Positions 600-35,218 of a stretch of 35,218 bases of DNA are shown here, piece by piece. This DNA comes from an uncultured Actinomycetes bacterium. Its GTDB lineage: Bacteria > Actinomycetota > Actinomycetes > Nanopelagicales > Nanopelagicaceae. The stretch is from contig CAIKCJ010000044.1 in assembly GCA_903825945.1 (NCBI GenBank), positions 1-35,218 on the forward strand, in the 5' to 3' direction. Within the stretch, counting starts at the first letter, position 1. The number at the start of each line of letters is the position of its first letter. The notes below the pieces were generated by a model, which was given only the letters and a program-made list of their open reading frames with translations, was not told where the DNA came from and ran no database searches. The position numbers and the translations under genes were made by a program.

Positions 600-610
600 C
601 GCCCAATCCA

Positions 611-679: not shown

Positions 680-685
680 TAAAGT
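680..685 (+). promoter_or_regulatory. -10 box of leaderless M13 peptidase transcript
   Basis: TAAAGT is followed by 7 bases and then the ATG at 693. This supports ATG 693 over the GTG at 684, which overlaps the hexamer. Confidence 0.5.
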
Positions 686-692
686 GCGGACT

Positions 693-2687: not shown

Positions 2688-2698
2688 CTGATACAACG

Positions 2699-2728
2699 AG
2701 CAAGTAGTCCCGAAACGGGCTACTTGCT
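2699..2728. terminator. Hairpin between convergent pepO and peptide-ATPase genes
   Basis: AGCAAGTAG-(T)-CCCG pairs with CGGGCTACTTGCT around an AAA loop: 13 bp with one bulged base. There is no strong T-run on either side, but it sits in the 32-base gap between two converging genes and contains the ATPase stop codon, so a shared terminator or mRNA end is plausible. Confidence 0.6.
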
Positions 2729-4366: not shown

Positions 4367-4401
4367 TAAAGTACCTCGCTTACTTGTGGAAAGATGTCAC
4401 C

Positions 4402-5019: not shown

Positions 5020-6092
5020 TTCTCACCCTGCTTGGCAAGAGAAACCGCTTTTGCTTGTGCGCGTTCCTTACGCGAAATTCTGCGGCGTTGACGCGGGTCA
5101 AATGCATCGCGCAGACCATCGCCAATGAAGTTCACGCAGAGCGCAATGATGATGATGAAGATACCTGGATACCAGAAGAGCCATGGTCTCGTTGTAAAGG
5201 AATCTTGGTACTGGCTGATGAGCAAGCCGAGTGATACATCTGGCGAAACGACACCAAAGCCCAGATAGCTCAAGCCAGTTTCCAACAAAATTGCTCCAGA
5301 CATAATCAACGTAACAGAAACGATGATCACGCCAACAGCGTTTGGCAGGATGTGCTTAAAAATAATTCGGCGATCACTCGCTCCAGCTACACGGGCGGCA
5401 TCGACGAATTCACGTTCGCGCAAAGATAGGAACTCGCCTCGAACTAGACGCGAAAGTCCAGTCCAGGCAAAGAGACCTAAGTAGAAAGCCAAGAAGGTCG
5501 CTCCGAGATTGCCGAAGTGGAAGCCAATAACCGATCCGATAATGATGGATGGAATTGTGATGATGAAATCTGTGAAACGCATCAAGATGGCATCGACTTT
5601 TCCGCGATAAAAGCCAGAGATGGCTCCAATCACTGTTCCGATAACTCCACCGACAATACCGATGATGAACATGACCAGAATTGAACGTTGGGCGCCACGC
5701 ATCACAAGTGCGAAGTAATCACGCCCAATGTCATCTTGGCCGAATGGGTGATCGCCTAGTCCGAAAGACTTGGAAAATGGATTGATGCTCAGTGTCGGAC
5801 AGCCTGATAGATACTGAGGACAACCCTGCGTCCGCAAGTCAGGCTGCTCGGTGTAGTTGTACTTCCACCAACCGTGGTATTTCAGGAAACCAATTTTGAA
5901 ATCCAGCGCCGAGAAGACAAATACGAGAATGGTAGAGAGAACGCCAAGCGAGATGATTGCACCGCGATGTCGAAGGAATCGACGCAGAACAATTTGACCC
6001 TGGCTTAGACCTTCGGTCTCCTTGTTGAAAATATCAACTTGGCTGGCATCGTTATCGACGCTCTTGCGCTTGAAGCGAGTAAAAATGCTCAT
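5016..6092 (-). CDS. dppC: Peptide ABC transporter permease (DppC/OppC type)
   Basis: This 358-residue membrane protein has the DppC pattern: an N-terminal segment before the first membrane helix (RFLRHRGAIISLGVL), a periplasmic-side loop with NPFSKSFGLGDHPFGQDDIGRD, and the cytoplasmic EAA coupling loop (REFVDAARVAGASDRRIIFKHILPN) that contacts the ATPase. It pairs with the permease encoded just upstream; their genes overlap by ATGA, implying translational coupling. It forms the inner-membrane channel for peptides delivered by the binding protein at 7804-9663. Confidence 0.95.
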   Translation of the reverse strand: MSIFTRFKRKSVDNDASQVDIFNKETEGLSQGQIVLRRFLRHRGAIISLGVLSTILVFVFSALDFKIGFLKYHGWWKYNYTEQPDLRTQGCPQYLSGCPTLSINPFSKSFGLGDHPFGQDDIGRDYFALVMRGAQRSILVMFIIGIVGGVIGTVIGAISGFYRGKVDAILMRFTDFIITIPSIIIGSVIGFHFGNLGATFLAFYLGLFAWTGLSRLVRGEFLSLREREFVDAARVAGASDRRIIFKHILPNAVGVIIVSVTLIMSGAILLETGLSYLGFGVVSPDVSLGLLISQYQDSFTTRPWLFWYPGIFIIIIALCVNFIGDGLRDAFDPRQRRRISRKERAQAKAVSLAKQGEN

Positions 6093-7615
6093 TTACTTAC
6101 CACCCGAATTCGAGGATCAAGATAGGAATACAAGAGATCGGCAGCCAAATTAGCAAGGACGGCCAAACTCGATGTCACGAAGAAAACTCCCATGAGCAGA
6201 GTGAGATCGAAATTAGTAATTGCGTTATTAAAGAGAGTTCCCATTCCCCGCCAGCCAAAGACGCGCTCTGTGATAATCGCGCCTCCGATGATGCCGGCGA
6301 AGTCCACAACAACAATCGTGGTCAAAGGAATCAAGGTATTTCTAAATGCATGTCGCATAATGACAGTGCGCTCAGTCAACCCCTTGGCTCGAGCCGTACG
6401 GATGTAGTCCTGGTTCATAACTTCCAACAACGTACCGCGTGAATAACGAACGTAGGTTGCGAACGAAATCAGCGTTAGTGCGATCGTAGGAAGGAATACG
6501 TGGAGCAAAATATCCAAGAAGGTAAACCAGAAATGACCTGGGGCCAACAATGAGTTTGATTCACCGATTGTTGGAATGGGGCGATTGTTAACAGCATCAG
6601 TATTGACGTAAGGAACCCATGTCTTCATCAACTTGTCAATGAGAATAATGATTCCCATAACCAAAGATGTGATAACCGAAGTGCGGATGACAGGGCGCCG
6701 ATCTTCTTTTGCAAAGTAATACCCACATCCCACTGCCAAACCAACAGTCAGGCAAGCAAGTAGAAAGACTGTCAGGGCGCCTGGGTATTTGTTAAATAGA
6801 TATTGCGTTGGGAAATAAAGCACTACGCCAAGTGCAACTACAGCCAAAGATGCATTGCGGGCGGCTTTATTTGCCAAACCAGTAGAAAGGAATGTGACCG
6901 CATATGCGATTCCTATGCCCATTGCGGCAATCATGATCGGTCCTAAACCAGGGTGAGAGAACCACTTGGTCAGTGAGAGAAGCGTGAGCACGATAGCTGT
7001 CGCTGCGCCAGAGATACCGAAAATTGTAAAGACGCGCTTTCGATCTCCACTAATAACTGCAGCCCAGAAGAAGCCACTAACTATCGATAGGCCGGCGATC
7101 CATGCTGGAGCAATTGTCGCAGTCCCTAAAAAGTTATTAAAACTGATTGCCAAGTACTGCTTCAGAAGTACGGCTACCCAGAAAATTGGTAGTGAATATA
7201 AGAGAAATGAAACAAATGTCATCGCGTAGTCAAAGCGAGAATATTGACGCAAGGCAGAGACGATACCTAGACCAATTCCTAGGATCACGGCAATGAGCGT
7301 CGCCATAAAGATGAGGCGGATCGTGATGGGGATGGCTTGACTCAGTTCGGTTGAGACTGGGTTGCCACTTCGGGTTAAACCAAGATTTCCAGTCAGGAGG
7401 TGCTTAAGCCAGATGAAATAGCGAGCAGGAGGTGGGACGTTGAGTTGAAGTTGGTGGATGAGAGCATTTATCTCAACTTTGACCTTTGGGTCAGTGCTTC
7501 CGCGAAGGCCCTCAAGGGGGTCTCCGGAGATCGCAGCTAAGTTGTAAAGAATGAAACTCGAACCGAACAAGATCACGATCAGAATGCTGATTCGACGACC
7601 GATATAGGCCAACAC
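6089..7615 (-). CDS. dppB: Enlarged peptide ABC transporter permease (DppB/OppB type)
   Basis: The first ~165 residues (MLAYIGRRISILIVIL, GNLGLTRSGNPVSTEL, LLYSLPIFWVAVLL) and the last ~150 (VRYSRGTLLEVMNQDYIRTARAKGLTERTVIMRHAFRN, the EAA loop at about 401-426) match DppB. The family is usually 305-340 residues; this one is 508. The excess is an insertion at roughly 165-345 with about six additional hydrophobic segments and no family that I recognise. It starts with GTG, with AAGGAGG 9 bases upstream, and couples to dppC by an ATGA overlap. Confidence 0.93.
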   Translation of the reverse strand: MLAYIGRRISILIVILFGSSFILYNLAAISGDPLEGLRGSTDPKVKVEINALIHQLQLNVPPPARYFIWLKHLLTGNLGLTRSGNPVSTELSQAIPITIRLIFMATLIAVILGIGLGIVSALRQYSRFDYAMTFVSFLLYSLPIFWVAVLLKQYLAISFNNFLGTATIAPAWIAGLSIVSGFFWAAVISGDRKRVFTIFGISGAATAIVLTLLSLTKWFSHPGLGPIMIAAMGIGIAYAVTFLSTGLANKAARNASLAVVALGVVLYFPTQYLFNKYPGALTVFLLACLTVGLAVGCGYYFAKEDRRPVIRTSVITSLVMGIIILIDKLMKTWVPYVNTDAVNNRPIPTIGESNSLLAPGHFWFTFLDILLHVFLPTIALTLISFATYVRYSRGTLLEVMNQDYIRTARAKGLTERTVIMRHAFRNTLIPLTTIVVVDFAGIIGGAIITERVFGWRGMGTLFNNAITNFDLTLLMGVFFVTSSLAVLANLAADLLYSYLDPRIRVVSK

Positions 7616-7678
7616 TTCTTCGTGCCTCCTTTATGCCTGCTACTGCAGTAATTGCAACGCGGGCAAGATTGACTTAAA

Positions 7679-7714
7679 AAGTGGTGGCACCGAACCAAGT
7701 CGGTACCACCACTT
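7679..7714 (-). terminator. Intercistronic terminator after the peptide-binding protein gene
   Basis: A 14-bp stem with one mismatch (AAGTGGTGGTACCG / CGGTGCCACCACTT on the minus strand), an 8-base loop, and a T-run on the minus strand immediately after. It lies between the binding-protein and permease genes, so partial termination would give much more binding protein than permease. Confidence 0.75.
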
Positions 7715-7756
7715 GAATAATTTACTGAACTGTTCTACTCAACAAACGTTGTGGAG

Positions 7757-7788
7757 TCTGGAGAATACCTTAAGGAGAGCTCCAGACC
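7757..7788 (-). other. Second hairpin downstream of the binding-protein gene
   Basis: GTCTGGAG (7757-7764) pairs with CTCCAGAC (7781-7788); flanking AACGT/ACGTT could lengthen the stem. It lacks a T-run and may be a 3' mRNA-stabilising structure for the binding-protein transcript rather than a terminator. Confidence 0.5.
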
Positions 7789-7803
7789 CCGGACGTTAAT
7801 TGG

Positions 7804-9663
7804 TTAGAAGTGCCACTTCCAGAAGTTCCAGAAGAGAGTTGGCGATAGTGGAGCTGGAACAATACCTGAGAGGGTGCTTGTCGCTGCTGTCACTGTTGGG
7901 TTCTGGAAGATACCTAGGAAGAAGGCATCTGAGTTGATCTGACGCTCTGCATCAACCTGGAGCACACGTACCTGTGAAGGTATAAGTGTCTTAGCCTGAA
8001 GCTTCTTGCAATCAGCATCTACACGGGCATTTGAATAACCTGTGTAGTTCGATCCTGCGCCAGTCTGGAAAGTGCCACATGCTTGCGCATCTTGTGGAAC
8101 AGCAGTCTGATCGAAGATGAAGAAGTGAGCATCGTAGGTAGAGCTTGTGAGCTTTCCACCCCAACCAGCTGTTGCTGGTGCCGTGACCTTGAAACCAGCT
8201 TGTGCTTCAGCAGCAATAATCAAAGCTGCTTCAGATGCACGACGTGTGTTTCCTGGTGAACCCCAGAGAAGGTTGATTGAGATTGGTGTGGTTCCGTTAC
8301 CGGCAGTTGGGTACCACTTCTTGACCAAAGCAAGTGCCTTGGCAGTACGTGATGCCTGTGTGCCTGATGAGTAACCAACAGAGTTGTTTTCTGCAGCAAC
8401 CGTTGCATAGCTTGGGTTACCTGGAAGTGTCCAAGTTGATCCCAAAACAGTAGCTGAAGGGTTGATTGGCTTGATCAGCTTGTTGACGATGTCTTCACGT
8501 GGGTAAGCGAGCAAGAATGCTTGACGCAAATCTGCTGCCTTCTGTCCACCTGACATTGCGAATGGGCCTGTGTAAGGAGTTCCATCAGATGACGCTACGC
8601 GCAGTTCAATGTGCTCGTAAGCCAATGATGATGTTGTTGAAACATCGACACCGCTAATTGCGTGCAATTGAGCAACTGTGTCAGCTGTTGGTTGACCCTG
8701 GTAAACATCGATGTCCTTGTTGGCTAGAGCCTGAGCTGATGGTGAACCATCGGCAATGCCCTGCTGGATGACCATTGTTGTGATGCCAGATAGTGCTGGA
8801 CCTGAGTTGTACTTAGGGTTAGCAACCATCTTGATCTGGTTTGCATCGATTGATGACACAACATATGCGCCGTTTCCGACAGCAATCAGCGGATTGCTTG
8901 AGCTATCAAATGTGGTGGTATCAAAACCAGTGCTAAATACAGCGCCCATAGCCTTGATTGCTGCGGCGTTGTATGAGGTGAAATCAGCCAAGAACTTGTT
9001 CGAAGCAGCTGAACCAGCAGCAACGGTTGGAAGTGTCTTTGAACCTGCTGCAAGAAGCTCGTATACGTGAGCTGGCATTGGAGAAGATGGTCCGTTGAGG
9101 ATTGGATCTGGAATAGCTGTGCTGTACTTGAATGTAGCGCTCATGTGATCTGCGCTAACGGTTGGTAGGCCAACGATGTATTGATCGTATACGCCGCCGT
9201 AGTTGAGTCCAGCCCAGACAGGTGTATCTGCAGTGTTTGGATCAGGAAGACCAGCCTTCTTGAAGTATGCAGAGCTTGCTGTGAGGTGGAATGGGAGCAG
9301 GTCAATCGCTGTGATTGGGACTCCATCAGACCACACGCGGCCTGGAGCAACCGTGTAAGTCACTTCGAAATCGCCAGGAGCGTTCTTTGTAATCTTGTAT
9401 GAACCAATTACTGGGTTAGGGACGATGTTGAGCTTGTCGTCGTAGTACCAGAATGGTGAGTTCGTGAGGTATGAAACATCTTGATTGATAACAATGTTGT
9501 TGTTCGGTGTTGCACCGTTGAACGATGTGAATGTGTTGCTCTCAACAACGATTGCAGTGTCGCGTGTCGCTGCATTCGCTGGGGCTGCAAGCGCACCAAC
9601 AGCTGCGAACGCAACTGCCGAGACGAGGGCAACGGCTGAGCGCGTATTGAAACGTGCCTTCAT
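7804..9663 (-). CDS. dppA: Peptide ABC transporter substrate-binding protein, family 5
   Basis: The 619-residue exported protein has a Sec signal peptide (MKARFNTRSAVALVSAVAFA... with a PANA-A cleavage site at about 31/32) and no lipobox cysteine. The body fits SBP_bac_5: GRVWSDGVPITAIDLL near the N terminus, and LRQAFLLAYPREDIVNKLI in the middle. It would deliver oligopeptides to the DppBC permease. A lipid anchor is usual in Gram-positive binding proteins, so its absence is notable; retention may rely on another mechanism. AAAGGAG stands about 6 bases before the ATG, unlike the leaderless neighbours. A terminator hairpin separates it from the permease genes. Confidence 0.93.
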   Translation of the reverse strand: MKARFNTRSAVALVSAVAFAAVGALAAPANAATRDTAIVVESNTFTSFNGATPNNNIVINQDVSYLTNSPFWYYDDKLNIVPNPVIGSYKITKNAPGDFEVTYTVAPGRVWSDGVPITAIDLLPFHLTASSAYFKKAGLPDPNTADTPVWAGLNYGGVYDQYIVGLPTVSADHMSATFKYSTAIPDPILNGPSSPMPAHVYELLAAGSKTLPTVAAGSAASNKFLADFTSYNAAAIKAMGAVFSTGFDTTTFDSSSNPLIAVGNGAYVVSSIDANQIKMVANPKYNSGPALSGITTMVIQQGIADGSPSAQALANKDIDVYQGQPTADTVAQLHAISGVDVSTTSSLAYEHIELRVASSDGTPYTGPFAMSGGQKAADLRQAFLLAYPREDIVNKLIKPINPSATVLGSTWTLPGNPSYATVAAENNSVGYSSGTQASRTAKALALVKKWYPTAGNGTTPISINLLWGSPGNTRRASEAALIIAAEAQAGFKVTAPATAGWGGKLTSSTYDAHFFIFDQTAVPQDAQACGTFQTGAGSNYTGYSNARVDADCKKLQAKTLIPSQVRVLQVDAERQINSDAFFLGIFQNPTVTAATSTLSGIVPAPLSPTLFWNFWKWHF

Positions 9664-9808
9664 GTGTTCTCCTTTATAGGTACGTTCTTACCCGACTGGT
9701 CTTTGAGCCACTGGTAAGGGGCCGAAAGGTGAACAGGTAATGACGTGAGGGTTAACAAGTAGGACCATCCTGCACCATTTGTCGCATTTATTTCAATAGT
9801 AATGGCCT

Positions 9809-9814
9809 TAGAGT
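9809..9814 (+). promoter_or_regulatory. -10 box of leaderless tgt transcript
   Basis: TAGAGT ends 6 bases before the tgt ATG at 9821. No Shine-Dalgarno site is present. Confidence 0.6.
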
Positions 9815-9820
9815 TGGGCT

Positions 9821-11086
9821 ATGAGCTCTACGTCATTCACCTTTTCAGAGACCGTAAGCCTGGAATTTAGGGGCACTGGCGTCGATAAAGGGGTAGGACT
9901 AGGCCGAGCGGGTGAGATTGTGACCCCCCATGGGGTGATCGCGACCCCAGCTTTTATCCCAGTTGGAACCAAGGCCACCGTTAAATCCGTCCTTCCGGAA
10001 TCCATGAAGGATCTCGGTGCCCAAGCAATTTTGGCTAATGCCTATCACCTCTACCTGCAGCCAGGTCCAGAGATCGTCGATGAGGCTGGTGGTGTGGGCT
10101 CGTTTATGAACTGGAGCGGTCCAACCTTCACAGATAGCGGCGGGTTCCAAGTTCTCTCGCTCGGCGTGGGCTTTAAAAAAGTGATTGCCATGGATACCGA
10201 AACTTTCAGATCGGATGAAGTAATTGCAGAGGGTAAAGATCGATTAGCACACGTTGATGATGACGGCGTGACATTTAAATCTCACCTCGATGGACAGATG
10301 CACCGCTTCACTCCAGAAGTTTCAATGCAGGTCCAACATCAACTTGGTGCTGACATCATCTTCGCATTTGATGAGTGCACCACGTTGCACAACACAAGAA
10401 GTTATCAAGAGCGTTCACTTGAACGTACTCGACTATGGGCAAAGCGTTGTTTGGTTGAACATGGGAGACTGACGATGGAGCGATCTCATCGCCCTTATCA
10501 AGCGCTCTTCGGAGTTCTCCAAGGCGCGCAATATGAGGACCTTCGTCGCAAGGCCGCGCAAGATCTCAGCGCACTCGATGAAGATGGAATCTCATTTGAT
10601 GGATTTGGTCTAGGTGGCGCGCTGAATAAAGCCGAACTTGGAACGATCGTTGGTTGGATGACAGAGGAGTTGCCACGCAACAAACCGCGCCATCTCCTCG
10701 GAATCGGCGAACCAGATGATCTCTTTACCGGCGTAGAAAATGGCGCAGATACTTTCGACTGCGTTGCACCATCTCGCCAGGCTCGAACGAGCGCAGTCTT
10801 CACGGAAGATGGTCGTGTCAATCTCACCAACGCAAGATATGCACGCGCGTTTAATCCGATAGATGCGAATTGCGATTGTTACACCTGCGCCAACTACACG
10901 GCCGCTTATGTAAGCCACCTATTTCGCGCAAAAGAGATGTCCGCCGCCACTTTAGCAACTATTCACAATGAGAGATTTATTGTTCGTTTAGTAGAGCGTA
11001 TGCGCCAATCGATCATCGATGGCAATTTCTTTGAATTTAAAGAGGACTTCCTCGGACGCTTCTACAGCGCAAAGAGCCCTGCTTAA
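9821..11086 (+). CDS. tgt: tRNA-guanine transglycosylase
   Basis: This enzyme exchanges guanine 34 of GUN-anticodon tRNAs for a queuine precursor (preQ1 in most bacteria). The 421-residue protein shows the family signatures: TDSGGFQVLSLG (substrate-site Asp), FDECTT, HLLGIGEPDDLF, the second catalytic Asp in NGADTFDCVAPSRQAR, and the zinc site CDCYTC with the later His in ATIHNERF. An N-terminal extension of about 25 residues precedes the barrel. No other queuosine genes occur in the window, so the precursor source is not visible. The gene converges on the MpaB-like gene with only 11 bases between stops. Confidence 0.96.
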   Translation: MSSTSFTFSETVSLEFRGTGVDKGVGLGRAGEIVTPHGVIATPAFIPVGTKATVKSVLPESMKDLGAQAILANAYHLYLQPGPEIVDEAGGVGSFMNWSGPTFTDSGGFQVLSLGVGFKKVIAMDTETFRSDEVIAEGKDRLAHVDDDGVTFKSHLDGQMHRFTPEVSMQVQHQLGADIIFAFDECTTLHNTRSYQERSLERTRLWAKRCLVEHGRLTMERSHRPYQALFGVLQGAQYEDLRRKAAQDLSALDEDGISFDGFGLGGALNKAELGTIVGWMTEELPRNKPRHLLGIGEPDDLFTGVENGADTFDCVAPSRQARTSAVFTEDGRVNLTNARYARAFNPIDANCDCYTCANYTAAYVSHLFRAKEMSAATLATIHNERFIVRLVERMRQSIIDGNFFEFKEDFLGRFYSAKSPA

Positions 11087-11097
11087 CCTAAAACTTC

Positions 11098-11982
11098 TTA
11101 TCCCCGAGCAATTCTCTCGCGCGCAACTTCCTGGCTAGGCGACTCTGCTCCCAAGACCCAACTCAGTAGCTGCAACACCTTTGAGCACGCCCAATGCCAC
11201 ACTCCTGAGACTTTCTTTAAACCCAAAATATTTCTCTGTTCTGGTGTCAATGTGTAGATCGCGCCATTGACTAAAACTTTGTAAAAAACCAAAGCACCCT
11301 TGCCAAGTGGTGGCTTAAGAATAAATTTCACTACCTCCTCGGTTTGCGGTCGAGCGCCGAGATCTTCGCGTAAAAAACTCTCCATAGTACTTTTTAATTC
11401 CGGGACTGATTGAGGGGCAGCTTTCAAGCCAAGCCCTATGGCGCTCTGGCTCCACTCTCGAACATATTCATCTGCACCTTTAGCAATGGGATACCCATAC
11501 GCTAAATGAGAAGTCAGAAATGAATCGGTAAAGGCACAATGCACCCAGAGTAGATAGCGCGGATCACTCGCGCGGTAATTAGTTTCTTCACCGATCATCG
11601 ATTGAAAGCTGCCAGAAACTTTTTGGTGCATTGCATTAACTCGCGCCGCTTCTTTAGCGATGGCTTCAGTGGACCCGAAGGTTGTAATTGTGAGCCAACG
11701 CGCTGTTCCGGCGAGTCGACCAAGAGGATCACTCTCATATCTGGAATGTTCACTTACCCCTGTAAGTGCAGCTGGATGGGTGGCCTGCAGTAGTAGTGCG
11801 CGCACTCCCCCAACTAATGTGGCGATGCACCCATGCACTTGCCAGACCGCACTATCTGGACCAAATAACCCAGGCCCAGAGCCTGCTGCGATGAGTTTTA
11901 CCCAATCAGGCCTGCCATCGGGACTTCCCGAGACAATTTCCCTAAATCGATTAGCCATCTTTCGTCGCACACTGGTGGCCAT
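11098..11982 (-). CDS. DUF2236 / MpaB-family oxygenase-like protein
   Basis: The 294-residue protein has the DUF2236 (MpaB/latex-clearing-protein catalytic domain) pattern: VGGVRALLLQATHPAALTGV, then SRYESDPLGRLAGTARWLT, then DPRYLLWVHCAFTDSFL. The family includes haem-b oxygenases, with His residues such as those in QATHPA and WVHCAF as likely ligands. The substrate here is unknown. No signal peptide is seen. The ATG at 11982 is set by a TAGAGT hexamer 6 bases upstream. Confidence 0.88.
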   Translation of the reverse strand: MATSVRRKMANRFREIVSGSPDGRPDWVKLIAAGSGPGLFGPDSAVWQVHGCIATLVGGVRALLLQATHPAALTGVSEHSRYESDPLGRLAGTARWLTITTFGSTEAIAKEAARVNAMHQKVSGSFQSMIGEETNYRASDPRYLLWVHCAFTDSFLTSHLAYGYPIAKGADEYVREWSQSAIGLGLKAAPQSVPELKSTMESFLREDLGARPQTEEVVKFILKPPLGKGALVFYKVLVNGAIYTLTPEQRNILGLKKVSGVWHWACSKVLQLLSWVLGAESPSQEVARERIARG

Positions 11983-11988
11983 TTCGAC

Positions 11989-11994
11989 ACTCTA
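11989..11994 (-). promoter_or_regulatory. -10 box of leaderless MpaB-like gene
   Basis: TAGAGT on the minus strand, 6 bases before ATG 11982; identical hexamer and spacing to tgt and the aquaporin gene. Confidence 0.6.
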
Positions 11995-12036
11995 GAACAG
12001 TCGGGGGCGCTTGGCGATTTAAGAGATATTCAGATT

Positions 12037-12070
12037 TCGGACATATTAATTAATCGGACATATTAATTAA
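12037..12070. repeat. Perfect 17-bp tandem repeat in a promoter region
   Basis: The unit TCGGACATATTAATTAA occurs twice without a gap (12037-12053 and 12054-12070), ending 14 bases before the -10 of the small membrane protein gene. Each copy contains the palindrome TTAATTAA. It covers the -35 region, so it could be a duplicated regulator site or a recent duplication. Confidence 0.9.
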
Positions 12071-12083
12071 TAGGAGCAATCGG

Positions 12084-12089
12084 TAGGCT
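12084..12089 (+). promoter_or_regulatory. -10 box of leaderless small membrane protein gene
   Basis: TAGGCT ends 6 bases before ATG 12096, favouring this start over the TTG at 12090. Confidence 0.55.
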
Positions 12090-12095
12090 TTGCCC

Positions 12096-12461
12096 ATGAA
12101 ACTTACACAGAATATTTTCTTGGCAATCCACATCCTCGCGGTAGCAGCGATGGTCCTCTTGCTCCTACGCCAGGCTGGCAAGAGCGTAAAGGCGATTCCT
12201 AAGGGATTTACTCACGCCGGACTTACCGCCCTCGTCGCAGGATTCGTCCTTACTGGAGTTCATCCAGCCCTTCACAAGCACTATCCACTTCAGTATGGGG
12301 CCCTGAACATGGGGACAGTTGCCGTCAAGCTTCTGGTCCTTGTGGCCGTCATAGTTTTGGCCTTCAAGCACCAAAAGCAAGAGTCAATCAAAACCTCTCA
12401 GTGGTGGACCCTGCTTGGCTTAATCGTGGTCAACATTGGCTTGGCAAGCACCCTTAAGTAA
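12096..12461 (+). CDS. Small four-helix membrane protein, unknown function
   Basis: I do not recognise a named family. The 121-residue protein has four hydrophobic segments at about 5-24, 43-59, 74-96 and 104-120, with short charged loops (KSVKAIPKG; HKHYPLQYG; KHQKQESIKTSQ). Two His residues lie in the second loop (HPALHKHYP). The layout resembles small actinobacterial integral membrane proteins annotated as hypothetical. It is monocistronic, preceded by the 17-bp tandem repeat and a leaderless -10. Confidence 0.75.
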   Translation: MKLTQNIFLAIHILAVAAMVLLLLRQAGKSVKAIPKGFTHAGLTALVAGFVLTGVHPALHKHYPLQYGALNMGTVAVKLLVLVAVIVLAFKHQKQESIKTSQWWTLLGLIVVNIGLASTLK

Positions 12462-12691
12462 GTGCGGTTCTTAGCTATCTAATCTCTTTAACTAAACCAA
12501 TTTTTGGGGTGTGTTGCGCTTAACTCTTAAGGTCAACTTGAGGTCGTAATCAAGATGTAACGCAAAGAACCCGTATCTGGCTGTCGCTGACTAGGGCTTC
12601 TTGAGTAAGTTGTACTCACTAGGCCCCTGAGCCTGATGGGCACGAGTTCCAAGTGTTAACGCCCATTTCACTAAGTAAACCTGGAGGAAAC
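12462..12691 (+). promoter_or_regulatory. Leader region of the nucleoside-binding protein gene
   Basis: This 230-base stretch has no gene. Near its 3' end are two possible stems: TGAGTA/TACTCA (12602-12607 with 12613-12618) and GCCC/GGGC (12623-12626 with 12638-12641). I could not match it to a purine, preQ1 or other riboswitch core, nor find a convincing -35/-10 pair. A long structured 5' leader would contrast with the leaderless genes nearby. Confidence 0.35.
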
Positions 12692-13735
12692 TTGAAGAAG
12701 TCTCTTAAAGTAACAGGCGTCGTTGCAGCTGCAGCGCTCGCTTTTGCTGGCCTTGCTTTGGCACCCGCCTCGCAAGCAGCAACACCTAAAGTATGTCTCG
12801 CACTTGATACCGGCGGCATCGACGATCACTCATTCAACGCTTCAGCCTGGGCCGGCGCTCAGACTGTTAAGTCACTCGCTAATGTTTCATACGTTGTAGC
12901 CGATGCAAATAACCCTGACTACACAGGCGAAGTGAATTCTCTTGTTAACAACAAGTGCAACCTCATCATTGGCGTTGGCTTCTTGATCACCTCTGCTATC
13001 GATGCAGCTGCAGTCAAGAACCCAACAATCAACTTCGCACAGGTTGATGATCCAGGTCTTGTTAACGGCAAGGCAATCGCAAACCTTCGTGGTCTCACAT
13101 TCGCAACAAATCAGGTCGGGTTCCTATCTGGTTACCTTGCTGCTGGATATTCAAAGACTGGCACTGTTGCGACATACGGCGGAATTAATATTCCACCAGT
13201 CACCATTTACATGGATGGCTTTGCTAAGGGCGCTGCGTACTACGCAAAGATCAACAAGAAGACAATCAAGGTTCTTGGCTGGGATCCAGCAGATCCTAAG
13301 ACCGGCGTATTCGTTGGCGACTTCTCAAGCCAGAACAAGGCGCTTCAGATCACAAAGAACTTCGAACAACAAGGTGCAGACGTTGTGTTCCCAGTTGCTG
13401 GTGGCCTAGAGCTCGCTTCAGCACAAGAAGCTGCTGCATCAAAGAAGTCAGTCGTCATTGGCGTTGACTCAGATGCTTATGGTTTGTACCCAACAGCACT
13501 TCATGGCGTCTGGTTGAACTCAGCACTCAAGGGTGTCGGAGCTTCAGTTGCAGCTGTCATCAAGGATCAAGCTGCTGGAAAGTTCAACAACGCTGCATAC
13601 GTTGGAACTCTTGCAAATGGTGGAACTGGCCTTGCTGGTTACCATGACCTTGCAGCCAAGGTTCCAGGCTCATTGCAGAACGCTGTACGTGCACTCGGCA
13701 AGGCAATTGCTACTGGCACAGTTTCAGCTAACTAA
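12692..13735 (+). CDS. Nucleoside-type ABC substrate-binding protein (BmpA/PnrA family)
   Basis: The 347-residue protein starts MKKSLKVTGVVAAAALAFAG with cleavage near SQA-A; there is no lipobox. The mature N terminus VCLALDTGGIDDHSFNASAW is the Bmp family signature, and VVFPVAGG and VVIGVDSDAYGL continue it. Bmp proteins bind nucleosides; the adjoining catabolic genes support that here. The start is TTG 12692 with GGAGG 4 bases upstream; the GTG at 12653 would add 13 residues that spoil the signal peptide. A strong terminator follows, so it is probably made in excess over the rest of the transporter. Confidence 0.92.
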   Translation: MKKSLKVTGVVAAAALAFAGLALAPASQAATPKVCLALDTGGIDDHSFNASAWAGAQTVKSLANVSYVVADANNPDYTGEVNSLVNNKCNLIIGVGFLITSAIDAAAVKNPTINFAQVDDPGLVNGKAIANLRGLTFATNQVGFLSGYLAAGYSKTGTVATYGGINIPPVTIYMDGFAKGAAYYAKINKKTIKVLGWDPADPKTGVFVGDFSSQNKALQITKNFEQQGADVVFPVAGGLELASAQEAAASKKSVVIGVDSDAYGLYPTALHGVWLNSALKGVGASVAAVIKDQAAGKFNNAAYVGTLANGGTGLAGYHDLAAKVPGSLQNAVRALGKAIATGTVSAN

Positions 13736-13754
13736 CCAGTTACCTAGGTAGTGC

Positions 13755-13797
13755 AAAAAAACCGAGAGAGTGAGTACTTCGCTCTCTCGGTTTTTTT
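13755..13797 (+). terminator. Terminator between binding-protein and ATPase genes
   Basis: ACCGAGAGAG (13761-13770) pairs perfectly with CTCTCTCGGT (13782-13791) and is followed by seven T; an A-run on the left makes it potentially bidirectional. As the downstream transporter genes lie on the same strand, it probably acts as a partial terminator or is bypassed by a second promoter. Confidence 0.9.
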
Positions 13798-13813
13798 GAT
13801 AGTTTTTCGCCAG

Positions 13814-13843
13814 TCAAGACCATTCAAGACCATTCAAGAAAAT
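13814..13843. repeat. Three 10-bp tandem repeats before the nucleoside ATPase gene
   Basis: TCAAGACCAT, TCAAGACCAT and TCAAGAAAAT follow each other directly, ending 17 bases before the GTG start. The period is close to one helical turn, as in tandem regulator sites, but no regulator is identified. Confidence 0.85.
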
Positions 13844-13860
13844 TGCAGAAAGAGGAACGA

Positions 13861-15363
13861 GTGTCACTAGAACTTCGCGGCATAACCAAGTCATTTGGCG
13901 CGCTAGTAGCAAACGACTCGATCGATTTACGTGTAGAACGCGGTGAGATTCACGCAATTCTTGGCGAGAATGGCGCTGGCAAATCCACGCTGATGAATAT
14001 CGTTTATGGTCTCCTCAAGGCAGATGCTGGCGAAATTTATGTAAACGACACACTTCAAGAGATTAATGAACCCAGCGATGCACTTGCAGCAGGAATCGGC
14101 ATGGTTCACCAACATTTCATGCTTGTCCCTGTCTTCACAGTCGCCGAGAACATCATCTTGGGACATGAAAAATCAAAGCGGAATGGAACACTTGACCTTG
14201 ACCAAATCCGCGCCGATATTAAGCGCGTATCAGACGAATTTGGATTCGAAGTCAACCCTGATGATCTCGTTGAAAATCTTCCTGTAGGAGTGCAGCAGCG
14301 CGTTGAGATTATCCGCGCGCTCATTTATGACGCCCAAGTTCTTATTCTGGATGAACCAACTGCAGTCTTAACACCTCAAGAGACCGATGAACTCCTCAAA
14401 ATTATGCAGAAACTTGCCGATAAAGGCACTTCAATCATTTTCATTACCCACAAACTTCGCGAAGTGAAGATCGTTGCTGACAAAATCACAATTATTCGGC
14501 GAGGAAAAGTAGTCGGAACAGCGCAACCATCTGCATCTCAAGAAGAGCTCGCCTCGCTCATGGTGGGACGCCACGTTGTGCTTAATCCAGATAAGGCCGC
14601 TCACCCTATTGGCGAGGTAGTTTTGAGCGTTAAAGATCTAGCCATTAAAGATCACTTTGGCCGCACTATCGTTAAAAACGTCTCCTTTGATGTGAAAGCT
14701 GGAGAAGTACTCGCTATTGCTGGAGTGCAAGGAAACGGACAGTCCGAGCTCGCTCAAGCAATGATCAATCTCGAAGAATTCGTCGAGGGCTCCATCAAGT
14801 TGGGTGATGATGAGATCGTCGGTAAGAGCGTCAAGCGAGCCTTAGATGATGGAATCGCATTTGTCCCCGAATCTCGCGAACTCGATGGGTTGATCTCTAC
14901 CTTCTCAATTGCCGAAAATCTGATCTTGGATCGACATGATGGCGCTCCTTATGCCAAAGGGATCAACTTGAATCCCAAGGTAGTCAAAGAGCAAGCGCAG
15001 GAAGATACGAAACTCTTTGATGTCAGATTCCAATCAGTTGATGATCCAATCTCCTCTCTTTCAGGGGGCAATAAGCAAAAGGTTGTTCTCGCTCGCGAAC
15101 TTTCCCGTCCCGTACGCCTGATAGTTGCATCGCAACCAACTCGTGGACTCGATGTTGGTTCTATCGAGTTTGTGCATGAGCGAATCTTGGCTGAACGCGA
15201 CATGGGGCGCGCAGTCCTTCTCTTTAGCACCGAGCTGGATGAAGTTCTCGCACTCGCAGACCGAGTCGCTGTGATGTACCGAGGTGAAATTTTGGCAATT
15301 GTTCCAAGCACTGTAACCCCGCAAGAGTTAGGTCTACTGATGGCAGGTGTCGTACATGCGTAA
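13861..15363 (+). CDS. Nucleoside/sugar ABC transporter double ATPase (NupO/YufO type)
   Basis: The 500-residue protein has two ABC domains as in ribose and nucleoside importers. The first has Walker A GENGAGKST (about 35-43), the divergent signature NLPVGVQQRVEI and Walker B LILDEPTAVLTPQE. The second has the degenerate Walker A GVQGNGQSE, signature SLSGGNKQKVVLAREL and ASQPTRGLDVGS, typical of this subfamily. The GTG start has AGAGGA about 5 bases upstream. The TTG at 13843 is in frame but less likely. The stop overlaps the first permease start by 8 bases. Confidence 0.93.
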   Translation: MSLELRGITKSFGALVANDSIDLRVERGEIHAILGENGAGKSTLMNIVYGLLKADAGEIYVNDTLQEINEPSDALAAGIGMVHQHFMLVPVFTVAENIILGHEKSKRNGTLDLDQIRADIKRVSDEFGFEVNPDDLVENLPVGVQQRVEIIRALIYDAQVLILDEPTAVLTPQETDELLKIMQKLADKGTSIIFITHKLREVKIVADKITIIRRGKVVGTAQPSASQEELASLMVGRHVVLNPDKAAHPIGEVVLSVKDLAIKDHFGRTIVKNVSFDVKAGEVLAIAGVQGNGQSELAQAMINLEEFVEGSIKLGDDEIVGKSVKRALDDGIAFVPESRELDGLISTFSIAENLILDRHDGAPYAKGINLNPKVVKEQAQEDTKLFDVRFQSVDDPISSLSGGNKQKVVLARELSRPVRLIVASQPTRGLDVGSIEFVHERILAERDMGRAVLLFSTELDEVLALADRVAVMYRGEILAIVPSTVTPQELGLLMAGVVHA

Positions 15364-16534
15364 ACCACTTCTGCGCTCTTTCTCGCTTCGCGCACTCATC
15401 CTGCCCGCTCTCGCATTTGCGCTGTCGATGTTTTTCGGAGGTCTGCTTATTGCCCTCTCGGATTCAAATGTTTTGCATAAGGCGAGCCATCCGATTGCAT
15501 TCATCAAGGCGGCGGGGGCTTCGGCCGGAAACGCTTATTTAGCGCTCTTTCAAGGAGCAATTTTTGATCCAGGGCTCGCAAAGCCACATCAGTGGTATCT
15601 GGCTTTTGGCCCGCTATCAGAATCTTTAGTAGGCGCCGCTCCCCTCATCCTCGCTGGATTGTCAGTAGCACTGGCATTTCGAGCGGGTTTATTTAATATC
15701 GGCGCTCAAGGCCAATTCATCTTTGGCGCAATGGCTGCCTCATACGTGGGATTCCACTTTCATATGCCGATTGGCATCCATCTAGTTGTCGCTGCGCTGG
15801 CAGGAACACTCCTTGGCAGCATCTGGGGTGGAATGGTCGGCTTGCTCAAAGCCCGTACCGGTGCTCATGAAGTAATTGTGACAATCATGCTTAACTACAT
15901 CGCCCTGTACTTCCTGCAATGGATATTGGGCACGACTACATTTCTTATTCCAGGACGTAACGATCCGATCGCTCCACCTGTTCTCCAATCGGCACGTCTG
16001 CCACTTCTTGCTGGCAGCAACTTCCGACTCAACGCTGGCATATTGGTAGCTTTCGCTGTTGCAGTATTTGTCTGGTGGCTCCTTAATAGAACCACGATCG
16101 GCTTTAAATTCCGCGCTGCAGGTGCCAATACATTTGCATCAAAGACGGCAGGCATCTCGGTTCCGTTTGTTATGACCAGCGCAATGGCCGTTGCTGGTGC
16201 GCTAGCAGGACTAGCTGGCGCAGTTCATGTACTTGGAGATAACTTCCAGCTGACATCTGGTGTCGCCGGTAACTTTGGTTTTGACGCGATCACCGTGGCG
16301 TTGCTTGGACGCGCAAAACCCCTAGGAACCGTTCTTGCCTCACTTCTCTTTGGAGCCCTCGGTGCGGGTGCAGCTGCTATGCAGGCCAAAACAAATACTC
16401 CGATCGATATCGTTCTTGTGATTCAGGCACTCGTAGTTCTCTTTATCGCAGCGCCAGATGTGGTGAAATCAATCTTTAGATTGAAAAGCCTCAAAACAGC
16501 TGGCGGGCTAGTTTCGAAGGGATGGAACGGATAA
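15356..16534 (+). CDS. Nucleoside ABC transporter permease 1 (NupP/YufP type)
   Basis: This 392-residue multi-spanning protein belongs to the BPD_transp_2 permeases: LFNIGAQGQFIFGAMAA, the conserved segment KARTGAHEVIVTIMLNYIAL, and FDAITVALLGRAKPLGTVLASLLFG. It pairs with the next permease to form the membrane channel. ATG 15356 lies inside the end of the ATPase gene; a GTG at 15347 would add three residues. Confidence 0.93.
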   Translation: MRKPLLRSFSLRALILPALAFALSMFFGGLLIALSDSNVLHKASHPIAFIKAAGASAGNAYLALFQGAIFDPGLAKPHQWYLAFGPLSESLVGAAPLILAGLSVALAFRAGLFNIGAQGQFIFGAMAASYVGFHFHMPIGIHLVVAALAGTLLGSIWGGMVGLLKARTGAHEVIVTIMLNYIALYFLQWILGTTTFLIPGRNDPIAPPVLQSARLPLLAGSNFRLNAGILVAFAVAVFVWWLLNRTTIGFKFRAAGANTFASKTAGISVPFVMTSAMAVAGALAGLAGAVHVLGDNFQLTSGVAGNFGFDAITVALLGRAKPLGTVLASLLFGALGAGAAAMQAKTNTPIDIVLVIQALVVLFIAAPDVVKSIFRLKSLKTAGGLVSKGWNG

Positions 16535-32257: not shown

Positions 32258-33430
32258 CTACCTTTGACGTGCGAGAAAGCTAGTTTTGCATCCTTCCATG
32301 CAGAAGTAATAGTCGACACCATTCACTTTTGCAGTAGCTGCTGCATCCGATTTTCGCACCTGCATTGCGCACACGGGATCTACAGCAAAATCACTCGACT
32401 CCCCTGGTTTGTGTCTATAAGCCCAAATAATGAAGGCCACCAAACAAAGCGAGAATCCATTTAATATGGTCGTTGCATTGAGTCCAACATGATGAGTGTT
32501 AGCTACAACGCTGCGACGTACTGGAATCCAATGGAGGGCAGAGAAAATTTGATCGGTTATTAGTCCACTTAGGGATATCACGCCCCAAAATACAAATACC
32601 AAACGACGCGTTAATCGCACTCCGAAATATTTGCGATAAAGAAGAATCAGTGGCAATGAGAGAAGATCAGCAAAAATAAATGAGATTGTTCCGCCAAATG
32701 TAATCCCCGCATGCCAGAGTGCTGCCGCCAGCGGAATGTTGCCAACGCTGCAAACAAAGCTAATGCAGGCAATCACTGGACCTATCAGAGCATTCTCTGC
32801 CTGCGTCAGCCAGCCGTGTCCGCTGACGAACAGAGATGTCCATACGTGTGTCGGTACCAAACGAGTTGCCAGTCCTGCAACTATAAAACCGATAATTAGT
32901 TCGGTGCGCATCATCCGATAATCACCAATTGCAAATCCTGCCGCATCGCGAATTGATGGCTGACTTGGGATGGCTTCTTCATCTGCCATTGCAAGCCCAC
33001 GATTATTAGCCACCAAACCTCGCGTAACCCGCGGCAATGTCACCCATAACAGTCCAATCATTATGAGGCCACCTATAAATTCCGCAGCAGCAAATTGCCA
33101 ACCTATGAGGACGAACAATACGAGTCCGAGTTCAATGACGAGATTGGTACTCGCGAACATAAAGATCATCGCCGCCGTGAAGTCTGCGCCTTTCTTATGA
33201 AGGCTATTTGCAAGTCCGCTAGCTGCGTAGGAACATGAAGAAGAGATGATTCCAAAAATTGTTGCGCGTGCAACCGCTGGAGCGGAATGGTCGCCCAAAA
33301 GAGATTTCATTCGATTGCGCGAAATATAGGCTTGAATCAAGCCGGATAGAGAAAAGCCAAGGATCAACGCCCAGAAAGTTTCATAGAACATCCACCAGCC
33401 ATCGCCAAGCCCATTGAGCGTCGCACTCAT
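32258..33430 (-). CDS. COG0701-type metal permease fused to a YHS domain
   Basis: The 390-residue protein has an N-terminal permease part (about 1-335, eight or so helices) with the motif FGIISSSCSYAASGLANSLHKKGADF and a second half-repeat around CSVGNIPLAAALWHAGITFGG. A C-terminal YHS metal-binding domain follows (DPVCAMQVRKSDA ... YYFCMEGCKTSF, with Cys residues). The permease resembles mycobacterial Rv2963, a copper-responsive gene, and more distantly ArsP, the methylarsenite exporter. Metal or metalloid export is likely; copper or arsenic cannot be chosen from sequence alone. TAGGGT lies 6 bases before the ATG. Confidence 0.85.
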   Translation of the reverse strand: MSATLNGLGDGWWMFYETFWALILGFSLSGLIQAYISRNRMKSLLGDHSAPAVARATIFGIISSSCSYAASGLANSLHKKGADFTAAMIFMFASTNLVIELGLVLFVLIGWQFAAAEFIGGLIMIGLLWVTLPRVTRGLVANNRGLAMADEEAIPSQPSIRDAAGFAIGDYRMMRTELIIGFIVAGLATRLVPTHVWTSLFVSGHGWLTQAENALIGPVIACISFVCSVGNIPLAAALWHAGITFGGTISFIFADLLSLPLILLYRKYFGVRLTRRLVFVFWGVISLSGLITDQIFSALHWIPVRRSVVANTHHVGLNATTILNGFSLCLVAFIIWAYRHKPGESSDFAVDPVCAMQVRKSDAAATAKVNGVDYYFCMEGCKTSFLARQR

Positions 33431-33496: not shown

Positions 33497-33633
33497 CTAC
33501 TTCTGTTTCTTTAGATCACCCAAGTGCGTGTGCTTGAAATCAGTGTCATGTTTGAGACCGTACCCGAAGAATCGATCCCAGCCAATATGGCCGAGCCAGA
33601 TAATGCCGATTGCCAGAGCTTCGGCTTACCAGA
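33497..33633 (-). pseudogene. DUF4260 relic, copy A
   Basis: On the minus strand the DNA reads GKPKLW, then, after a frame change, AIGIIWLGHIGWDRFFGYG, LKHDTDFKHTHLGDLKKQK and a stop. This is the N-terminal edge and the C-terminal third of a DUF4260 membrane protein (normally about 115 residues) with the middle deleted and no start codon left. It aligns closely with copy B at 34777-35018 but has a larger deletion, so both are independently decayed copies. Confidence 0.75.
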
Positions 33634-33658
33634 GATGTGTAGGGAATCTAGGTTAAAA

Positions 33659-33691
33659 AGTATAAAAGAAGAGTCGCCCTCTAAGCCGGAT
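33659..33691 (-). repeat. Displaced copy of the rnpB 3' end
   Basis: This stretch repeats the last bases of rnpB and the following DUF4260 promoter (compare 35025-35056): the shared cores GAAGAGTCGCCCT and TAAGCCGGAT differ by one substitution and one inserted A. The match stops at the arsC stop codon, where the real rnpB continues. Confidence 0.85.
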
Positions 33692-34092
33692 TAGGTGAGA
33701 AGTTGTGAAAGCAGTGCCTCTACTCGCACTTTGATCTCATCCCTCACTTTGCGAACAAACGCCAAGTCTTGACCTGCGGGATCTTCAAGTACCCAATCTT
33801 CATAACGCTTTCCTGCATAGAACGGACAGGCATCTCCACATCCCATTGTGATCACTGCGTCAGATTGAAGAACCGCCTCTGTCGAAAGGATCTTTGGCTG
33901 TTGGCTTGCAATATCAATACCGACCTCAGCCATTGCAGCAATAGCAACGGGGTTGATTTCAGTCTTGGGTGCTGATCCAGCAGAAAGAACTTCAACACGA
34001 TCTCCCCCAAGCTCACGCATAAAGCCTGCCGCCATCTGTGAACGCCCTGCATTGTGAACACAAACAAAGAGGACTGTTGGTCTCTTACCCAT
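33691..34092 (-). CDS. arsC: Arsenate reductase, LMW-phosphatase fold
   Basis: The 133-residue enzyme reduces arsenate to arsenite in the cytoplasm. It has the CX5R phosphatase loop VCVHNAGRSQMA (nucleophile C11), TMGCGDACP (C85, C89) and the WVLEDPAGQD Asp-Pro loop. The GCGDACP spacing is like the actinobacterial mycothiol-linked enzymes rather than the thioredoxin-linked Staphylococcus type; that is inference. Its start overlaps the end of the aquaporin gene by 8 bases. Its stop codon abuts the displaced rnpB repeat. No arsR or arsB/acr3 is visible. Confidence 0.94.
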   Translation of the reverse strand: MGKRPTVLFVCVHNAGRSQMAAGFMRELGGDRVEVLSAGSAPKTEINPVAIAAMAEVGIDIASQQPKILSTEAVLQSDAVITMGCGDACPFYAGKRYEDWVLEDPAGQDLAFVRKVRDEIKVRVEALLSQLLT

Positions 34093-34747
34093 GTTTACTC
34101 GTCTCTGAATTGAAAAATATGCTTAACCCAAAGCCAATTACTGCTCCAGCGCACTGTGCAATAACGAAATCTGGGACCGATGAAATATTGATCCCTGGAA
34201 AGGTATCGGTGAAGCTTCTTGCCAAAGTGACCGCAGGGTTGGCAAAAGATGTCGAAGAGGTGAAGAGATAAGCTGCCCCTATCCAAGCTGGGACGAGAAT
34301 CGGGATCAGTTTTGATTTACCAAGGTTTATCGAGTGGAAGATGACAAAGATAAGGCCGGCTGTGGCAACAACCTCGCCTAACAAGAGTGCATCTCCGGTC
34401 CGAGAATGTTGGGAGATAGCTACTGCCGGATGAGAGAACATGAGATTTGCGAGCATCACTCCGAGTATTGCTCCTAGGAATTGTACAACCACATAAAAAA
34501 TGCCCTCGGATATGGAAAGTTCTCGACGAATTACTTGGATCACGCTCACCAAGGGGTTGAAATGTGCGCCACTAATCGGAACAAATAACTCGATAAGAAG
34601 TCCTAGAGCCAGAACAGTGGAAACTGTATTTATGAGAAGTTCTATTCCAACATCTTGAGTGAGATTCTGTGCCATTGCACCCGAACCAACGACCGCTGCC
34701 ACAAGTAAGCCTGTGCCAAAAAATTCTCCAACCAGGCGTTTGAACAT
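34085..34747 (-). CDS. MIP/aquaporin-family channel of the arsenic type
   Basis: The 220-residue protein has six helices and two half-helix loops: GAHFNPLVS (N64-P65-L66, so NPL instead of NPA) and SFANPAVTLARSFTDTFPG (N170-P171-A172, with selectivity-filter Arg R177). Aquaglyceroporins in ars operons, such as Sinorhizobium AqpS, let arsenite leave down its gradient once ArsC has made it. Overlap with arsC makes that role likely. The gene has its own TAGAGT box 6 bases before the ATG. Confidence 0.92.
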   Translation of the reverse strand: MFKRLVGEFFGTGLLVAAVVGSGAMAQNLTQDVGIELLINTVSTVLALGLLIELFVPISGAHFNPLVSVIQVIRRELSISEGIFYVVVQFLGAILGVMLANLMFSHPAVAISQHSRTGDALLLGEVVATAGLIFVIFHSINLGKSKLIPILVPAWIGAAYLFTSSTSFANPAVTLARSFTDTFPGINISSVPDFVIAQCAGAVIGFGLSIFFNSETSKHG

Positions 34748-34753
34748 TTGAGA

Positions 34754-34759
34754 ACTCTA
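34754..34759 (-). promoter_or_regulatory. -10 box of leaderless aquaporin-arsC transcript
   Basis: TAGAGT on the minus strand, 6 bases before ATG 34747. No inverted repeat for an ArsR-type regulator was seen next to it. Confidence 0.6.
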
Positions 34760-34776
34760 CAGGAGTCTAAACGACT

Positions 34777-35018
34777 TTAAGAAGATCGGTTACCTTTATT
34801 CAAATCCCCAAGGTGAGTGTGTTTGAAATCTGAGTCATACTTGAGGCCGTATCCAAAGAATCTATCCCAACCGATATGTCCTAGCCAGATGATTCCAATA
34901 GCCATGACTAATTTGCTCTCTGCTCGCCATGCAAAAATAATCATGAGCCGATAAGAAGCACTAGTCCTTCCAGGCGAAGCCACAACCTAGGCTTACCAGT
35001 TACGTAAGTTGGTTCCAT
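34777..35018 (-). pseudogene. DUF4260 relic, copy B
   Basis: The N terminus is intact and typical of DUF4260: an ATG at 35018 gives MEPTYVTGKPRLWLRLEGL followed by VLLIGS and a stop. After a shift to another frame the C-terminal third follows: VMAIGIIWLGHIGWDRFFGYG, LKYDSDFKHTHLGDLNKG. About 100 bases of the middle are missing. It keeps a leaderless TATACT box at 35025-35030, 6 bases before the ATG. DUF4260 proteins are small membrane proteins of unknown role. Confidence 0.8.
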
Positions 35019-35024
35019 AGGGAG

Positions 35025-35030
35025 AGTATA
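35025..35030 (-). promoter_or_regulatory. -10 box of the decayed DUF4260 gene
   Basis: TATACT on the minus strand, 6 bases before ATG 35018. The same hexamer survives in the displaced copy at 33659-33664, where no ATG follows. Confidence 0.5.
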
Positions 35031-35035
35031 AAGAA

Positions 35036-35218
35036 GAGTCGCCCTATAAGCCGGATCCTGTCCATCGCTTTCGCGAGTGGGCCATCATCCATCTAGTCGC
35101 GCAATTACTCACGCGATCAAGCAACCTACCTGATGACTCGAGCGAGCAGCTCTCAAGCGCCATCTTTTTAGTCTTGCTCCAAGTGGGGTTTGCCTTGCCG
35201 CCGATGTCACCACCGGCG
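35036..35218 (-). ncRNA. rnpB: RNase P RNA, 3' part (cut by the window edge)
   Basis: Read on the minus strand, the sequence contains the bacterial type A RNase P elements GGCAAACCCCACTTGGAGCA and AAAAAGATGGCG, and ends GATCCGGCTTATAGGGCGAC, the usual 3' strand that closes helix P1. The 5' half with AGAGGAAAGTCC lies beyond the window. The mature 3' end is placed at about 35036 by analogy with other actinobacteria. Confidence 0.9.

Follow-up and report, generated by a model that had tools for sequence, protein, structure and literature searches.

Gene cassettes behind rnpB in freshwater Nanopelagicaceae and a candidate attachment site at the end of the RNase P RNA gene

An aquaporin–arsC unit between two copies of the rnpB end

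How did an aquaporin gene and an arsenate-reductase-like gene (arsC) come to lie between two copies of the 3′ end of the RNase P RNA gene (rnpB)? The question is raised by the window, meaning here the whole 35,218-nt stretch analyzed, which constitutes contig C44 of a 1.26-Mb draft genome (G000). All features discussed are on its minus strand, in the order rnpB, core 1, DUF4260 relic 1, aquaporin, arsC, core 2, DUF4260 relic 2, and an ArsP-type permease. The 3′ half of rnpB (class A; 35031..35218, Rfam RF00010, 126 bits) is cut by the contig end, and the last 27 nt of the gene form core copy 1 (35030..35056), the proposed attachment site. Repeat alignment placed a displaced copy, core copy 2, at 33665..33691, identical to copy 1 at 26 of 27 positions, in the same orientation and 1365 nt away. 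A TATACT box comes after each copy, immediately adjoining core 1 at 35025..35030 and following core 2 at 33659..33664; it resembles a −10 element and may act as one. An initial annotation of this DNA had described a repeated string of rnpB end, TATACT box, and DUF4260 remnant in one orientation; that description is confirmed, with the limits of the rnpB part now refined to the 27-nt core. Its second rnpB-like stretch does align, at the 26 of 27 positions given above, but contains no more of rnpB than its final 27 nt.

The unit between the cores holds the two cargo genes predicted earlier, both now with Pfam matches: a MIP-family aquaporin (34085..34747; PF00230, E 6e-25) and arsC (33691..34092; PF01451, E 5e-20), which has the low-molecular-weight phosphatase fold and matches arsenate-reductase models at scores below the model cut-offs. 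The arsC stop codon, said to touch the displaced copy, shares one base with it. Upstream of the aquaporin lies DUF4260 relic 1 (34777..35018; PF14079 positions 65–112 of 113), which keeps its start and end and lacks the middle present in the genomes G006 and G013. The more decayed relic 2 (33497..33664) follows core 2 and aligns to relic 1 with 80% identity over 102 nt (E 7e-17); alignment to the intact G006 and G013 genes shows both relics to be without a large internal part, relic 2 having lost more. An ArsP-type permease gene (32258..33430; PF03773) opens the right flank and is common to G006. Chance alignment of the second copy can be dismissed: the window genome contains the 24-nt core (≤2 mismatches) four times, while a reversed control gave 0 matches in the 296 genomes of the order. 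We regard the two-core unit and its limits as established.

Close relatives bear on how the unit arose. In G006, whose rnpB end is 97% identical to that of the window over 190 nt and whose right flank is 91–96% identical over 5.8 kb, an intact DUF4260 gene forms a core-bounded cassette directly behind rnpB, with arm-like repeats (described below) on both sides. A relative with rnpB, one intact DUF4260 gene, and no aquaporin–arsC was the arrangement sought in checking the initial annotation, and G006 gave no match to the aquaporin–arsC DNA; the stretch right behind rnpB is seen there, and because the genome is 86% complete, absence of the pair elsewhere in it is not certain. The cargo behind the rnpB core differs among G000, G006, G010, and G023, the last two carrying other genes at the same point as had been predicted, which supports the rnpB 3′ end as an insertion point. 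Because DUF4260 is itself a core-bounded cassette in G006, its presence on both sides of the window unit could be explained by two stacked DUF4260 cassettes.

The proposed arrival of an arsenic segment beside rnpB fares less simply. The aquaporin–arsC pair could instead be an old neighbor of rnpB, with the DUF4260 cassettes and the displaced core as the newcomers, an alternative that concerns polarity only and is compatible with a site-specific mechanism. In its favor, G013 has a core, an intact DUF4260 gene (PF14079 positions 1–112), and arsC about 1.2 kb from the core, and arsC lies 2.5–10 kb behind a core on the same contig in four further genomes of the window's genus (G016, G018, G022, and G042). 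Against it, G006 shares the right flank and lacks a match to the pair, and the unit is core-bounded on both sides with its last stop codon touching the core, as in other cassettes. We regard the old-neighbor alternative as rather doubtful. Gain of the pair by the window locus is likely and, given arsC and an intact DUF4260 gene behind the core in G013, unproven. DNA resembling at least part of aquaporin–arsC occurs in 228 of the 296 genomes, its location having been checked in a few.

In the window assembly, moreover, the 5′ half and the 3′ half of rnpB each occur twice and share a central 141 nt without differences. Contig C47 of this assembly (loci L035 and L036) carries 20 kb flanked by an rnpB 3′ half on one side and a 5′ half on the other, with genes for aerobic CO-dehydrogenase, molybdenum-cofactor, and molybdate-transport functions; this arrangement may reflect a tandem copy, a circle, or mixed strains. 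The same 19.9 kb (97.6% identity) is found in G042 on the 5′ side of rnpB, beside an rnpB 5′ half, a placement that weakens the case for the CO-dehydrogenase segment as an ordinary cassette; coxL is present in three of the 32 genomes of the genus. In G004, of the same genus, rnpB is likewise present twice in full, on contigs C29 and C58, and one of the genes follows a displaced core.

Core copies and cassettes across the order

The 24-nt core (≤2 mismatches) was found in 175 of the 296 genomes, with at least two copies in 106 and at least three in 64 (a tally transcribed from a per-genome table, which reproduces the total of 175), amounting to 399 copies against 0 for the reversed pattern; within the window's genus, 21 of 32 genomes possess it. 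A pattern scan of public genome contigs retrieved at least 117 core-bearing stretches. Among the matches listed, core-bearing loci include Candidatus Planktophila, Nanopelagicus, and Nanopelagicaceae, labels from which we infer that the core-bearing group is the freshwater acI lineage. Named complete genomes have their copies mostly clustered behind rnpB, as in IMCC26077 with five cores within 3.7 kb; the complete genomes G049 and G052 carry three cores each, and in G050 one of four cores is situated about 1 Mb away. One region taken from G148 contained no core. Core-bearing contigs labeled Ilumatobacteraceae, Phycisphaerae, Dehalococcoidia, and others (L092, L158, L184, L190, L191, L194, and L199) were also encountered and may be misbinned acI contigs. 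In a single-cell genome, L224, several cores run opposite to the array direction (at 865, 1445, and 6599).

The displaced copies stop at the core with great regularity. Two criteria were used to separate cores of rnpB itself from displaced ones: a short motif upstream, which gave 75 rnpB and 179 displaced cores, and a conserved motif of rnpB, which gave 72 and 179, with three sites too short to judge. At 175 of the 179 displaced sites, the 25-mer upstream of the core is no closer to rnpB than shuffled sequence. The four exceptions comprise one true longer repeat, in G017, where the displaced copy repeats 46 nt of rnpB at 91% identity, two sites resembling divergent ends of rnpB, and one unclear case; the displaced set still includes a few such divergent-rnpB-like sites (L161 and L179), both counted in these four exceptions to the shuffled range.

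What lies between the cores is mostly short. From the fetched loci, 112 core-to-core segments were collected (core at ≤4 mismatches, length 60 to 16000, duplicates dropped by a shared 40-nt midpoint), with a median of 707 bp; 85 are shorter than 1.5 kb, and 69 have one ORF. With orientation and ORFs assigned mechanically, 128 of 178 ORFs read away from rnpB (forward) and 50 read in reverse, a count in which four ORFs appear twice because the opposite-strand L224 segment spans other segments. A forward ORF is present in 77 segments; in 67 of these the end falls no more than 100 nt from the next core, and in 40 no more than 20 nt. Seven ORFs have their stop inside the core. Eighteen cassette families (53 members), grouped by a match over >60% of one member only, recur between loci, and 17 of them have at least one pair that differs on both flanks; L044 and L091, for example, share a cassette at 99%.

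Cargo was surveyed by Pfam in 58 different hand-chosen proteins; the names given are family names, and functions are predicted. Acetyltransferases, glyoxalase-like, FMN-binding, and GyrI/Cass2-like proteins, EamA and DUF418 membrane proteins, a metal-type P-type ATPase, a phosphotransferase-family protein, and a metallo-β-lactamase-fold protein were found, together with an operon encoding ring hydroxylase, catechol dioxygenase, and thiolase domains and a type III restriction-modification pair. The heads of cassettes have features of their own: a TANNNT box is found one base after the core at 72 of 246 sites, whereas other positions average 3.2 such boxes and reach 13 at most, an excess of which part may be core sequence running on. 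Of 103 cassettes, 34 have a leaderless-like head, a feature present at 2% of interior points.

Such a recurrent element might have been repeated as a transcription-end or RNA-processing signal, with no recombination involved. Many cassettes do open with a hairpin and T-run soon after the core in the sequence listings, which would suit a signal. The occurrence of same-content cassettes between different flanks argues against this, as do integrase genes that end at or near the core, and we judge a pure signal function to be highly improbable.

Arm-like repeats, integrases, and the proposed mechanism

Strand-specific [GA]NGGGCA repeats concentrate 20–80 nt before displaced cores and 80–140 nt after cores. 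Upstream of displaced cores 74 were counted against 9.8 in shuffled sequence, downstream of displaced cores 54 against 7.0, and downstream of rnpB cores 72 against 2.9, while the mid-cassette control gave 2 against 2.9. Among the 103 cassettes of at least 300 bp, head arms are present in 22 and tail arms in 22 (21% each, versus 8% and 7% at interior control points); 32 have arms at either or both ends, and 71 at neither. The idea that arms mark every cassette was accordingly dropped, and the window cassette itself has no arm-like repeats at its ends.

Integrase genes were found at the same sites. Five tyrosine recombinases, four of them full (about 370 aa) and one cut by a contig end, are 42–86% identical and located in core-bearing loci; their alignment (A1) was used as a profile against the 296 genomes. 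Seven strong matches (E <1e-90) were retrieved in six genomes and weaker ones in seven further genomes. Among solved structures, the closest to the family bear the name Int protein (6en0 and others). For six of the seven A1 integrases, a core (≤5 mismatches) follows within about 310 nt of the integrase stop codon. In the remaining case, G113, the rnpB core lies 5.6 kb before the integrase, and the stop is followed by no more than a degenerate core. A divergent integrase in L184, about 25% identical to A1 members, likewise has a core 97 nt past its stop. The fullest form seen is an 11.1-kb element in G023, of the window's genus, which lies between rnpB and a displaced core and contains a primase-like gene, type III restriction-modification, and, at the displaced-core end, an integrase. 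The window genome itself has no A1-type integrase, its only two Phage_integrase matches being of Xer size and on other contigs.

We consider it very probable that the best explanation of these data is that the rnpB 3′ end serves as the chromosomal attachment site (attB) of a tyrosine-recombinase family in Nanopelagicaceae (acI), with cassettes stacking behind it. A circular element bearing the same core of about 24 nt, itself presumed, would recombine with the rnpB core, whereupon the incoming core would restore rnpB and the old core would be displaced to the far side. Repeated insertion would stack core-bounded cassettes behind rnpB, mostly single genes without an integrase, and these were probably moved in trans by the integrase of a full element elsewhere in the population. 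At the window locus, one such event would have left the DUF4260 relic 1–aquaporin–arsC unit between rnpB and the displaced core, followed by the more decayed DUF4260 remnant; both the integrase route for this unit and the enzyme that acted are conjectural. Several observations sit less comfortably with an integrase: the absence of an A1-type gene from the window genome and the rarity of strong A1 matches, the 71 armless cassettes with that of the window included among them, the G017 copy that exceeds the core, and the lack of any viral contig with the exact core or two shorter forms.

The initial annotation had instead favored homologous recombination between rnpB-linked segments: a fragment carrying rnpB and DUF4260 would have exchanged with the resident locus, with direct repeats as the outcome. 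The similar DUF4260 remnants flanking the unit speak for such an exchange, as do the G017 copy with its 46 nt of rnpB, the two cores of L135 that share the same 30 nt upstream, and the duplicated rnpB halves of the window assembly, whose 141-nt identity makes exchange inside rnpB possible, at least for the 20-kb C47 segment. However, the displaced copy of the window comprises the last 27 nt only and 175 of 179 displaced sites stop alike, integrases and arm-like repeats accompany the cores, and DUF4260 in G006 is a separate core-bounded cassette. Since hardly any displaced copy extends past the core, homologous recombination is rejected as the main mechanism, and we regard it as decidedly improbable. 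Judged from sequence comparison, site-specific integration at rnpB fits better, given core-only repeats, cassettes that recur in different contexts, arm-like repeats, and core-linked integrases in relatives.

Site-specific integration might also proceed without a dedicated integrase, if XerC/XerD or another chromosomal recombinase used the rnpB core as a dif-like site. The three-core complete genomes G049 and G052 would suit this possibility, each having just two Phage_integrase matches, of Xer size. Where A1-type integrases are present, however, they are located at cores; arm-like repeats are not a known feature of Xer systems, and the rnpB core is probably unlike a dif site. A Xer-only route seems improbable to us, and a dedicated tyrosine recombinase acting at the rnpB end remains the preferred reading.

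Relation to known systems and significance

Tyrosine-recombinase integrative elements and satellites insert at the 3′ ends of RNA genes, usually of tRNA and tmRNA, and accretion of integrase-free remnants is known from CIMEs. The rnpB arrays resemble them in having an integrase beside the core, a presumed restoration of the core on insertion, tandem accretion, and integrase-free remnants, and differ in their rnpB target; in the window genome, the element has no integrase inside it. RNase P RNA is suggested as an addition to the RNA genes that serve as integration targets. We found no report of rnpB as an integration target in the openly licensed literature searched, which is weak evidence of absence; one paper retrieved there employs rnpB merely as a promoter, and the excerpts of PMC7771536, PMC11039613, PMC10872708, and PMC11389934 show no rnpB target.

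Additive flexible genomic islands of streamlined plankton offer a close parallel. Methylophilaceae fGI-2 islands are described, in excerpts of PMC10872708, as additive islands at tRNA 3′ ends with insertions of 330 bp–42 kb and 1–63 genes, and fGI1 of Actinomarinales, in excerpts of PMC7771536, as an additive island at a tRNA 3′ end. As far as these excerpts go, both share with the rnpB arrays direct repeats of the end, or a part, of an RNA gene, cassettes of variable size, and content that differs between close strains. At the window locus an RNA-gene 3′-end repeat does bound the insert (27 nt, 26/27), and close relatives (G000, G006, G010, and G023) do differ in cargo at one point. On the same partial descriptions, the known islands target tRNA genes, whereas the arrays described here use rnpB, are linked to a core-associated integrase family, are dominated by single-gene units, and hold cassettes found in different contexts. 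Tycheposons, defined in the excerpted text of PMC10872708 by a tRNA target, an xerD-like recombinase, and an element of 4–200 kb, do not include the present unit, which targets rnpB and is 1.4 kb long without a recombinase.

Integrons invite comparison for another reason. Integrase-less integron cassette arrays (CALIN; PMC11389934, in part) and integrons are, like the rnpB arrays, series of cassettes that usually hold a single gene, end in a recombination site, and share one orientation for the most part; the integrase is often missing. One cassette protein of an rnpB array matches Pfam Cass2 and GyrI-like. Unlike integrons, the genomes checked have no integrase gene beside the first site, and the anchor is an RNA gene. 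The GTTRRRY motif of attC R and L boxes, read off the sequence, is found on neither strand of the core, and no attI with an adjacent intI was found in the window genome, G049, or G052; in the latter two, both Phage_integrase matches lie >100 kb from the cores. Integron membership is therefore rejected, as there is no intI at the array and no GTTRRRY in the core. By analogy, the array appears to work like an additive genomic island with integron-like cassettes.

A broader proposal, which we advance as plausible but tentative, is that rnpB acts across the family as an integron-like capture anchor, at which short cassettes are shuffled between species in trans by a phage-type integrase that is rarely resident. 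This capture-system reading takes in that a −10 box and a leaderless gene directly adjoin the core in some cassettes, and that one family carries an unusual tRNA-ACC. If it is true, the gene of an essential ribozyme would provide a permanent entry site and allow cheap swapping of single genes in streamlined plankton. In fresh water, acI actinobacteria rank with the most abundant bacteria, and their genomes are small, which makes their mode of gene gain of interest. In practice, the rnpB core offers a single marker by which any assembly can be scanned for genes acquired here, and the A1 family names a candidate enzyme.

Viral sequences provided distant relatives of the integrases. The 80 A1 relatives kept from viral contigs are mostly 24–33% identical; one in L339 reaches 60% over 62 residues, with no core in the piece examined, and the exact core and two shorter or degenerate forms gave 0 matches in viral contigs. 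Two viral contigs of 35 and 33 kb (L300 and L301) encode integrases 29 and 31% identical to A1, and each carries, on the opposite strand and about 115–120 nt beyond the integrase match, a GC-rich rnpB 3′ end (L300:4110 and L301:4110) with 1 and 4 mismatches to the pattern. The reversed control gave 0 matches at 4 mismatches, and at 6 mismatches pattern and control gave four matches each. In the viral contigs L296–L298, tRNA genes take the place of the rnpB end after the integrase. The L300 and L301 arrangement suggests that phages of other bacteria likewise target rnpB. Against a phage collection, one weak match was obtained over the arsC stretch and none for contig C47, and a 40-nt core query had no match in a plasmid collection.

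One recurring cassette of about 400 bp has no long ORF and carries a tRNA gene with anticodon ACC (L170:2341-2744, L112:2206-2609, L120:879-1378, and relatives). ARAGORN assigns it to Gly, with CCA encoded. ACC glycine tRNAs are rare in bacteria. A pattern for this tRNA matches 49 of the 296 genomes, some non-cassette tRNAs included. In 19 sequences of the cassette tRNA, the D-stem pairs in only 54%, and the anticodon stem covaries, with 14 cells changed on both sides and 1 of 500 shuffles as high.
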